Part shown: positions 14,364-20,379 of the stretch, piece after piece
How the letters are laid out: every line of letters starts with the position of its first letter
Position numbering within the stretch: position 1 is the first letter of the stretch
Origin: Hexactinellida sp. DTS-2022
Taxonomy: Eukaryota; Porifera; Hexactinellida
DNA: 64,000 bases
Direction: 5' to 3'
Assembly: GCA_028753945.1 (NCBI GenBank)
Contig: JAPNXP010000002.1
Span: forward strand, 13,826,001-13,890,000
Position numbers and translations under genes: made by a program
The notes under the pieces: generated by a model
Database searches by the model: none
Told to the model about the DNA's origin: nothing
Seen by the model: only the letters and a program-made list of their open reading frames with translations

Positions 14364-14878
14364 GGCTCAGCCCCCCTGCAATTCTCATTGCCCCACCCAT
14401 TATCACTTTGTGGCTACAGGCCTGTATCCAGATTGAGCAATTGAACGGATCTAAGTATCATATTAACTTTCTGACTATCAATTATTTTAGCTGGCAAATA
14501 TGTACTACGTATATCATTATAATGTCTAATACTTTTAATCATTAGATCATCTATCATATACTAAATTTGTCTTAATTTGATGTAACTAGTCATGAAAGTA
14601 AACTCTGCATTTATTGGTGTATAATGAATATCGCAAACCAGGGTATATCATGTGTGTGGCACTTAGAGCCCCGCCCCCCTGCAACGAGCAGATGGCGTGT
14701 ATACTCTGTAACTTCCTAGTATAGTCAATCCCGCATAATTGAAACAAGTTAATACCGAACAAGTTGACTCGAGAAACCGAAAACGAAACAATATATTGGG
14801 AGACTGTAGTATCGGGGCCGGCGCCTAGTGTAGCTAGGTGTATGCCGGCAGGAGCGCACTCGTAGAGTGTGGCAATAA

Positions 14879-15427: not shown

Positions 15428-15457
15428 GGCAATAAGGAAGCGTGACCACCCAGTCAC

Positions 15458-15507
15458 GGGGTCGAGGGTCACCCTCCTGATGAGTACCTGAGATGGTACA
15501 AAACCCC
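15458..15507 (+). ncRNA. Hammerhead-ribozyme-like motif (degenerate core)
   Basis: The 50-nt stretch folds as a hammerhead with open stem III. GGGG (15458-15461) pairs with CCCC (15504-15507); the cleavage triplet GTC would cut after 15463; stem I is GAGGG-TCA-CCCTC (15464-15476); the core CTGATGA is at 15477-15483; stem II is GTACC-TGAGAT-GGTAC (15484-15499). The second core element reads AAAA (15500-15503) instead of GAAA. The missing G is G12, the presumed general base, so this copy is probably inactive. Hammerheads of this small kind are known in retroposons, retrozymes and Penelope-like elements. Confidence 0.55.
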
Positions 15508-15735
15508 ACTAGTCATTCTGGTTGGCTAGGCTACAGTTGTCCCATAGTTGGTAGTTTACTACAGAGACACTTGTCACTTGTCACTGTTTACAAAAATAGG
15601 TAAACATTGTTACAAATTAATGAAAATTAAAAATAAATCTAGAGGCTAACTTCCAACGGGTATTATAGATAAACAATTAGTATGCTCATTTCGAATTAAT
15701 TATTTTCAAATTTTAAATGTACATATTTTTATATA

Positions 15736-17571: not shown

Positions 17572-20279
17572 CTAACAACAATTACATAGGGGGCATATCC
17601 ACAAATAATCTTCTCCGACATCTACAGCTACAACATTCACATTCCTCAAACAATGATTATGATGCCAGCCATCACATATATCACAACATAACCAGGCCAC
17701 ACTTACACTAATATCTCTACCAATACTACTACCCGCCTTGTTCAATATCCCACTGTCTTCGCTCCCTCCACATATTTTACATTTCATGTCCATATCCCGT
17801 GGCACACTTGTTGTTTGGGAATAGGCCCCGCTCTTATAGGTAGCTCCACGCTTCCGGGAGCGCTTTGCTTGTTTTAGGGACCATCTACGCTTAGTATTCT
17901 TTGCACATCTTAAACTATTTGTAATTCGCTCATTATCGAACTCTTTTATTAAACTATCTATTGAAATATAACCGTTCAATCCTAAAATATCGATGATTTT
18001 TTGAATTCCAGCTATCCCTTCGTTGAAACGAAGAATTGATAAACTACAACCTAATTTCATCAAACTCAATTCTATCGGCTTAGTTTTACTAATACAGTTC
18101 CAAATCATCCCATGAAGGTTCTCATTCAAATTTGAGGTATTACCACTCTGAACCTTTTCCAAAAATGACAGCGCAAAATATGGTGCTAAAATCTCTAAAA
18201 CTCGATCCCTACAGGCTAAACTGATGCACCTGGGATGTTTTGGAATGGTATCTCCTGCAACTACCGCTTTCTGATACATACAAAATGAATCAACACCCTT
18301 CTCACAATATTTATGCATTTCATGACAATTCTCATCATTAGCAGCTAAATGATAAACAATTCCCAACAATGCTTCACGTAATTCAATTAGATTACCACCA
18401 ATTCTACTTTTTACAACAAAGCCATAAAGTGATGTTATTTTATCAATTATATTATCAGCTAAAAGATTTATTTCAATAGATATATCTCCTAATTCTTCAC
18501 TATCACCCCAATTATCTCTCCCTTTTTTCAAATCCCAATGCGTAGATGGCCGATATAGATCCCTAACAGATCTTTTTTGCGCTTCTGTTTTACATTGCCC
18601 CAATTCGTGTTGCAATAGTGTCTTTTGAGAAGCAATAAATTATTTTTGTTTTTCAACTAAATGTATTCGTATACGCTTCTGAACATGGCTCAAACATTCC
18701 TCCCTCCTTATTGTTATATTAAATTCCCCATAAATTTTATTTTCAGCTAATATATTGATACTTTTATCATCACCATCCGCAATAACTGTGGAGTAAATTA
18801 ATTTTTGTTCTATTGACTTTCGAAAAATAACAGGTGCTAATTTTGATTCCAGCGCAACTGAACTATATTTGCCATATTCTTTGGCCTGGCAACTAGATTC
18901 ATGCATTTCTTTCCATATTTTATATTCAGCTAATTCTAACCGTTTTTCCCTAAGAGCTTGTTGCTTCTCAATTCACAATTTGCAACTATTACAGGCAATT
19001 TCATAGCTTAGTACTTTCCCAGTTTCCACGGATATAGCACAAGCAACGCAGTATCTAGAGAATCCACCGCCCGCTTTGCCCCCCCTTTTTTGATAGGCTC
19101 CGTCATAAGAAACAGTAACCTCTAAAAATTCTGAATCTGCGGTATTGTGGTTTTCTCTCAGCTCTAAGGCTGCCCGCATACAGCTTGCTTGTGCTACATC
19201 CGTGGAAACCTTAGATAAATAATCCTGAGCTTTGTAAAATGCTCTATTAGATAAAGTTGATGGCAAACCAATGAAAGTATTTACGAAATCAAGTCCTGAT
19301 TTACCAATTCCAACTAATCTACCTCCCAAAATTTGTAACAAGTTATGACCAAACTTTATTGTATTATCTGTGTCAGAATGGGGGGACTATTCTGAGGGAG
19401 AGTATAGAAAGGAGTAGCTGCAAAACATTGATCACAAACAATATAATAATGCAAGGCCAATCCATGATTATAAGATGTTCGATAAAAAGTTAGCCGACCT
19501 ATACTACAAAACTTACACACTGAAATTACATCTAGTGCTCCCTCTAAAATTCCTATATTCAAAAGTGCATTCCCTTCGACCCTACATAAATTTATTTTTT
19601 GACCCCTAGATTTGCCGACCTCAAAAATCTCCAGTTCCTCAAGTGGAAGATCTGGTAAAATGATTGGGGAGATTTTTGATTGGGCAGTTGTAAGCTTAGG
19701 CTGACTTTCAGATAACGGAGTTTCTTGATGTTCTTGGCTATCCAAAAATGGTATGGTCTCGTTTTGGGTCTCCACAGAAATTCTGGGGACCTTAGCGGAT
19801 AGCTCAAGAACATCAAGAGACTCCGTTACACTTGCTTGGCTGCTATTTGTTGGAACGGGAGCATACTCAGGAGCTAAGGCCACCTTTTCGCGCTTTATGT
19901 GTCCACGGAATTTATGAGGACGCTTTTTAGAGCCAACAAGAACTCTACGTTTTTTCATTTTTAGAATGGGAGTTATAGGAGCTGCAAATTCATATTTACC
20001 TTTAGATATTCCTCCAAAATCAAAACCTTTAGGCACTTCAATATCTTCATCAGAACTCGAACTTAGATCCTTTCGAGGAGGTCCCGGGTGTTCCTCCACA
20101 CCACCAATAATCAATAAAACTATTATAACCGCTAGCACCAGAAGTGTGGATATGCCCCACAATGTATCTATGGTCTGCCCAAGTGTAATATCTAGCTTCG
20201 GGGCACTAATCTTGGAAGACAGCCTCACTCTTCCTGCCCACACACCAATTCGACCTCTCCAGGCCTCAAGAGAGATCAT
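17572..20279 (-). pseudogene. Mutator-like transposase with 2A-like N-terminus and C-terminal PHD finger, broken
   Basis: Read on the minus strand. Piece one (20279-19356) begins with a hydrophobic stretch (residues 42-58) followed by GGVEEHPGP, a 2A-like ribosome-skipping motif (canonical DVExNPGP, so two positions differ), then a low-complexity Ser/Glu/Pro region and Cys pairs. Piece two (19341-18973) contains VSYDGAYQKRGGKAGGGFSR, the signature of Mutator-like transposases, and C-x2-C near its end. Pieces three and four (18906-18640 and 18615-17572) carry the catalytic Glu region NLNENLHGMIWN and a closing PHD-type Cys/His finger. The breaks are a shift of frame at a C-run near 19380 and in-frame stops near 18980 and 18635. 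Apart from these it is nearly full length, so decay is recent. I see no terminal inverted repeats; direct repeats bracket the region. Confidence 0.7.
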
Positions 20280-20379
20280 AACAAAAAAAACAAAAAATTA
20301 GAACAATTAGAACACTTAGATTAGAATTAGAAACAAATAGAAAATAAAATAATAATAAAGTAAAGATAAAATATGAAGA

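Follow-up and report, generated by a model that had tools for sequence, protein, structure and literature searches.

A probable LTR-retrozyme lineage in a hexactinellid sponge, recognized from a mutated type III hammerhead ribozyme in a solo-LTR-like unit

Plant LTR-retrozymes carry type III hammerhead ribozymes in their LTRs and are linked to Ty3/Gypsy retrotransposons (Cervera et al. 2016, PMC4918200; PMC7761336), whereas the animal retrozymes covered in the accessible portions of PMC7229834, PMC7761336, and PMC11722881 are of type I and lack LTRs, primer-binding sites (PBS), and polypurine tracts (PPT). Type III hammerheads as such are not new to animal genomes, as they are known from termites, where they are isolated motifs, and from flies. 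Those in the available text of PMC7936874 differ from the ones analyzed here in being isolated motifs (termites) or HDV-like RNAs, with longer helices and no LTR setting. Among the papers listed in searches of the open-access journal literature, none deals with an LTR-retrozyme in an animal, and on that literature such elements appear to be undescribed in animals.

The window analyzed here is a 64-kb stretch (C11:13826001-13890000) of the 112.4-Mb genome of Hexactinellida sp. DTS-2022, which is assembled in 18 contigs (C1 to C18). Its genes encode IgGFc-binding/AMOP/VWD/Sushi, caspase, GNPTAB-type, and Nup107 proteins, and this host gene content is animal. The ribozyme and the unit that carries it consist of the following features, in window coordinates:

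14800..14804, no strand: left target site duplication (TSD) GAGAC, from flank comparison
14805..14878, plus strand: retrozyme unit (solo-LTR-like), 5' part, which begins with TGTAGTATCGGGGCC and stops where the MITE is inserted, delimited with the siblings at C1:6801375 and C1:11462679
14871..14878, no strand: left copy of the 8-bp target duplication of the MITE, GGCAATAA
14879..15427, no strand: MITE, presumably hAT-like, with an interior rich in CAAATC repeats, from its TSD and terminal inverted repeats
15428..15435, no strand: right copy of the MITE target duplication, GGCAATAA
15436..15563, plus strand: 3' part of the solo-LTR-like unit, ending in TTTACTACA
15456..15509, plus strand: RF00008 ribozyme (type III hammerhead) in which A replaces G12, from cmscan, alignment, and fold
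15463, plus strand: C of GTC, with cleavage predicted after it from the RF00008 alignment
15500..15503, plus strand: altered GAAA box (AAAA), from comparison with other copies
15564..15568, no strand: right TSD GAGAC

The preliminary description had named all parts of a hammerhead except an intact GAAA box, and they are indeed present at 15458-15507. GTC and CTGATGA can be read from the letters, stem I has 5 bp and a 3-nt loop, stem II has 5 bp and a 6-nt loop, stem III is GGGG/CCCC, and AAAA stands where GAAA is expected. The RF00008 match found by cmscan at 15456-15509 scores 51.8 bits against a gathering threshold of 48.5 (E = 1.6e-8 for the window) and is the sole Rfam match over gathering in the 64 kb. 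With closed stems I and II, an open stem III, and a score above gathering, this copy belongs to type III. It departs from the invariant GAAA box, as its core deviates from the RF00008 alignment at G12, which is A here and G in 109 of the 110 ribozymes examined. The minimum-energy fold of the motif is the three-stem hammerhead, with a z-score of -2.0 against shuffles that is modest by itself. ACAAAAC in the window corresponds to ACGAAAC in the two copies that are nearest over the whole query (C1:6801375 and C1:11462679), so that the G12-to-A change fits a CpG-to-CpA transition. Loss of G12 would be expected to cripple hammerhead catalysis. Having acquired a MITE and lost G12, the window copy is probably inactive now.

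The two parts of the host unit together make up 202 bp, flanked by GAGAC on both sides, and represent a single, solo-LTR-like LTR of family A (see below). The MITE that splits it is 549 bp long. Its terminal inverted repeats are perfect over 19 bp, it is flanked on both sides by the 8-bp target duplication GGCAATAA, and from the length of this duplication and the CAGAG termini we take it to be hAT-like. Later splitting of the unit by a MITE, as first proposed, is thus borne out, but the ends given for the unit (14815-14878 joined to 15428-15560) need to be moved to those listed above; a right part starting at 15428 takes in the duplicated 8-bp target copy. Given the evidence presented below, the motif very probably represents a type III hammerhead that has mutated, carried by the solo-LTR-like copy of an LTR-retrozyme, a small element that is non-coding and has an inferred circular-RNA cycle. 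The original label "retrozyme-like" is correct and can be made more precise: an LTR-retrozyme that has a PPT, a putative primer site, TSDs, and, probably, a partner among Gypsy elements.

Copies of the ribozyme are numerous. RF00008 has at least 68 matches listed in the genome, at least 64 of them over the cut-off; this list is a lower bound from which the window copy itself is absent. The core pattern, from stem I to the GAAA box, has 391 matches in the genome when up to 3 mismatches are allowed; 236 of them are exact, and its reversed control has none. Among the 110 ribozymes read from loci fetched around these matches, by a motif scan blind to the GAAA box, G12 is kept in all but the window copy. 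In an alignment of 72 distinct 54-mers, 96.5% of the cells in the hammerhead structure pair (90.6% in shuffles), and 61 cells show double changes, compared with 15.5 in shuffles and 2 to 17 in slid structures. These double changes are confined to stems II and III, with none in stem I. Counted by base pair, they fall in 5 pairs (versus 3.9 in shuffles), which is not above chance, as 91 of 500 shuffles reach 5. The intact cores and the compensating stem changes on which the preliminary description had staked its reading are therefore both found in other copies. Its view that a chance match is unlikely also stands: the Rfam match, the covarying stems, and the genome-wide core count against its control rule out a chance motif. 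Ribozyme columns are identical at 0.94 and 0.91 in families A and B, respectively, versus 0.74 and 0.70 in the remaining LTR, a contrast favored by the sampling, in which copies were found via their ribozyme.

The copies are found on 17 of the 18 contigs, all except C9, which makes contamination unlikely. They are dispersed, which rules out a tandem satellite as the main form. Several copies at C1:13.0-13.9 Mb (13051266, 13135011, and 13906625; 13001820 and 13299477) share 530 to 812 bp of similarity and look like segmental duplicates rather than separate insertions. No match to the type I family RF00163 was found in this genome, a result that does not show type I to be absent, because the control genomes gave none either. 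Exact core patterns are found neither in IMG/VR nor in GTDB genomes, from which records near this genome may be left out.

The ribozymes sit in three LTR-like families, sorted from the locus clusters and L109-L114. Family A runs from TGTAGTATC to TTACTACA or TTATTACA, is about 200 to 235 bp long, and has 5-bp TSDs. Family B starts with TGTGACG or TGTTATA (and relatives), ends in CTCATCTCATAACA, and measures 231 to 359 bp with 4-bp TSDs. Family C, from TGTCATG to CATAACA or CTTACA, is 295 to 302 bp long and also has 4-bp TSDs. Its ribozyme, found via its primer site at L109 (C1:10354000-10355000), is more divergent, with GAGGAC/GTCCTC in stem I, a GTA site, and GGCC/GGCC in stem II. It is present in 9 places in the genome and scores 39.8 bits (E = 2.6e-5), below the RF00008 gathering threshold, a sign that counts of these elements based only on the Rfam threshold are too low.

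With strict TGT...ACA ends, identical flanks of 4 bp are seen at 16 of 103 sites (control mean 3.0, highest 9) and of 5 bp at 8 of 103 (control mean 0.69, highest 6). When family-specific ends are used, 22 sites of family A and 33 of family B have both of them; 11 in each family were set aside since a primer site, a hairpin, a polypurine tract, or an LTR in the opposite orientation lies directly next to them. Exact TSDs flank 7 of the 11 free-standing family A units and 13 of the 22 family B units, the choice of ends in family B having favored matching flanks; they are absent from the other 4 and 9, respectively. All 12 units chosen for detailed measurement have TSDs.

Complete elements consist of two direct LTRs around a short internal region. 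In the four that were measured, a type III hammerhead is found in each LTR (4 of 4 pairs), the LTRs are 222 to 325 bp long and 97.3 to 99.7% identical, and the internal region spans 73 to 161 bp and includes a PPT together with either a putative tRNA primer site or a hairpin:

C2:5624972/5625344: LTRs of 222/223 bp, internal region of 149 bp, identity 98.7%, TSD ACATG
C14:4308726/4308355: LTR identity 97.3%, TSD GTTAC
C6:4406, family C: LTR of 302 bp, internal region of 73 bp, identity 99.3%, TSD CTAT
C1:7627.9k cluster, first two LTRs, family B: LTR of 325 bp, internal region of 161 bp, identity 99.7%

Outer TSDs are also found at C11:12237827/12238207 (ACATG) and C12:2333224 (AATAC). In the latter copy, the 5' LTR is only 27 bp long, having kept both ends and lost the ribozyme part, next to a full 3' LTR and an intact outer TSD. 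At another locus (C6:4551174-4551639), which looks rearranged, family A LTR pieces of both orientations form a cluster that includes a hybrid 5' LTR.

The LTR edge reads TTGGCGACGAAGGTGGGATC in family A and TTGGTGCATTGGCCG in families A and C. Two putative tRNA-type primer sites are found there. For the first, TTGGCGACGAAGG..., a search of the genome that allowed up to 2 mismatches found no tRNA gene. The second, TTGGTGCATTGGCCGGGAA, is presumably the complement of the 3' end of tRNA-Gly and is present in 8 places in the genome, 5 of which were read. Before the 3' LTR stand polypurine tracts (AAGGTGAGAGGAG, AAAGGGAAGGTGA, and AGGGAAGAGTGA), which end in GAGGAG or GGTGA/AGTGA. The longest listed open reading frames in three elements are 92, 84, and 86 aa, which suggests that coding capacity is absent.

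This anatomy is shared with plant LTR-retrozymes, which, in the portions of PMC4918200 available, likewise combine one type III hammerhead per LTR with a short non-coding internal region, a primer site (putative in the sponge) and PPT at the LTR edges, a short TSD, solo and multimeric copies, a strongly paired monomer RNA, and end boxes in common with Ty3/Gypsy elements, the last seen here in family A only. Compared with the same portions, the sponge elements differ in their animal host, smaller LTRs and internal regions (222 to 325 bp and 73 to 161 bp in the four elements), primer sites other than tRNA-Met, the 5-bp TSD of family A, the covarying hairpin at the primer-site position of family B, and palindromic insertions within one TSD. 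Most of the LTR-retrozyme features looked for can be recognized in their sequences. As DNA anatomy, the assignment is well supported; catalysis and the RNA cycle are predicted.

These elements also bear on the possibility that the units are MITEs that carry a hammerhead by descent, with the ribozyme having no part in mobility. The 7-bp inverted termini of family A (TGTAGTA/TACTACA) with their 5-bp TSDs would suit a MITE, as would the free-standing units, whose number equals (family A) or exceeds (family B) that of units in larger arrangements. However, TG...CA is equally an LTR signature. In the full elements, the LTRs are direct copies, bordered exactly by a PPT and a putative tRNA-type primer site, and Gypsy-type coding elements have similar edges. 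A MITE origin, which we consider highly improbable, is largely refuted by the elements that run LTR, primer site, PPT, LTR within a single outer TSD.

Measured from ribozyme to ribozyme, the monomers of the three elements that were folded would be 372, 486, and 375 nt long. As circles, they are predicted to be 69, 70, and 66% paired, with z-scores of -4.4, -6.8, and -3.5, respectively, and none of 60 shuffles of each is as stable. Strong pairing and monomer size (similar to the range of about 170 to 400 nt in the accessible part of PMC7229834) would suit non-LTR animal retrozymes, tandem and of type I, as in cnidarians, molluscs, and axolotl. The available text on these metazoan elements (Cervera and de la Pena 2020, PMC7229834) shows further likeness in their animal genomes, non-coding nature, and small hammerhead-delimited monomers, but gives them type I ribozymes, a tandem arrangement, and no LTR, PBS, or PPT. 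Both topology and Rfam place the sponge ribozyme in type III, and LTRs, PPT, putative primer sites, and TSDs of 4 to 5 bp are present, making membership in the non-LTR group extremely improbable.

A likely autonomous partner exists for family A. With up to 2 mismatches allowed, the first primer site has 8 genomic matches. Four of these are retrozymes (on C2, C11, C12, and C14), three (L091/L099, L096/L100, and L097/L101) continue into a gag-like frame, and L098 is the eighth. Both of the gag-like frames tried had no Pfam match, so gag is named by eye. L100 has identical 169-bp LTRs (TGTAGTAAC...GTTATTACA), the first primer site at 19 of 20 positions, and AGGGAGGAG before the 3' LTR; it lacks an exact TSD. 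Three features of family A recur in L100: a start in TGTAGTA, a polypurine tract ending in GGAGGAG, and, at the LTR edge, CGTTATTACATTGGCGACGAAGGTGGGAT. In Pfam searches, a piece of L100 matches integrase, a piece of L099 matches RT, and pieces of L101 match gag protease, zinc knuckle, RT, RNase H, and integrase in Ty3/Gypsy order. These data point to a likely Gypsy-type partner for family A, a relationship that parallels the one between plant retrozymes and Ty3/Gypsy elements (PMC4918200). No Rfam match was found in L099-L102 at an E value of 0.01, and the ribozyme therefore appears to belong to the non-autonomous element alone. No such partner turned up for families B and C.

In family B, the primer-site position is taken by a hairpin that directly follows the LTR and includes the final LTR bases in its stem. 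It is seen at 14 of the 108 sites scanned, 5 of which had been fetched because of the hairpin or internal sequence. Five types can be distinguished, the stems of which differ on both sides yet stay complementary:

Type 1 (commonest): CATAACA-TAATAAC/GTTATTA-TGTTATG
Type 2: CATAACA-TCTGTAC/GTACAGA-TGTTATG
Type 3: CATGACA-TAATATC/GATATTA-TGTCATG
Type 4: CATCACA-TTATAAC/GTTATAA-TGTGATG
Type 5: CGTAACA-TAAGTAC/GTACTTA-TGTTACG

The commonest type is found in 9 places in the genome, 9 of 9 inside ribozyme-LTR loci, and so no autonomous hairpin-primed partner is known. A hairpin that adjoins the 5' LTR and stands where a tRNA site would be expected recalls Tf1 self-priming and the "Conserved Hairpin Site" of fungal GalEa elements, as far as these are covered in the accessible text of PMC5445492. 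According to the same text, the Tf1 primer site pairs with the mRNA start and GalEa elements are coding Copia elements; the family B stem differs from both in that it includes the terminal 7 bases of the LTR.

Opposed LTRs inside one TSD are found in five insertions across the three families. Four are at C15:1553 (ATAC), C14:4219 (CGTA), C16:1717 (GATTA), and C1:10354 (CAGG), and the fifth, at C1:7627.7-7629.9k, comprises five LTRs, two in one direction and three in the other, within the TSD CTAT. Such palindromic insertions could arise by fold-back or template-switched reverse transcription of circular or multimeric RNA. A family C palindrome carries a tRNA-type primer site, showing that palindromes do not need the hairpin. 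Other inverted pairs (C18:1605952/1606374, C13:697279/697614, C6:4551174/4551296, C1:14960, and C1:11806) have no TSD or have broken ends, and those without a TSD may be rearrangements; C11:14270090/431/676 and C1:11800470/591 were left outside this tally. As a tentative proposal, which we regard as possible but rather doubtful, family B might prime itself without tRNA by its LTR-end hairpin on circular RNA, with concatemeric and fold-back cDNA inserted whole, in which case the five opposed-LTR insertions would be footprints of rolling-circle or fold-back reverse transcription.

The arrangement of five LTRs within one TSD also suits a circular template better than the linear-RNA retrotransposition of TRIM-type LTR elements, in which the hammerhead would be a relic or have another role, such as 3' end formation. 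TRIMs do occur in bivalves, according to the accessible part of PMC6934838. Conservation of the ribozyme above the rest of the LTR and the exact core in 236 of 391 places are at odds with a relic, and we consider TRIMs a very unlikely identity for these elements.

In the cycle proposed for the LTR-retrozymes, a transcript of the full element would be cut by its two LTR ribozymes into monomers of 372, 375, or 486 nt, which would be ligated into circular RNA and reverse-transcribed by Ty3/Gypsy machinery. The primer would be a tRNA in families A and C and perhaps the self-made hairpin in family B. The resulting cDNA would integrate as solo-LTR, full, multimeric, or palindromic copies, and MITE insertion and G12 loss would have come later in the window copy. 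Near-identical LTR pairs, many intact cores, and palindromic insertions make the circular-RNA route directly testable in an animal with this genome. LTR-retrozymes present in hundreds of copies in an animal would break the division between plant (LTR, type III) and animal (non-LTR, type I) retrozymes and would bear on the origin of plant retrozymes and of viroid-like RNAs with the same ribozyme type.

Two more frames on the minus strand of the window have no Pfam match. A 313-aa frame at 19356-20297 contains GGVEEHPGP, which we take to resemble a 2A ribosome-skipping peptide. The 355-aa frame that adjoins it, at 17572-18639, has a cysteine-rich C terminus that looks PHD-like by eye, and both frames perhaps belong to one coding transposon.
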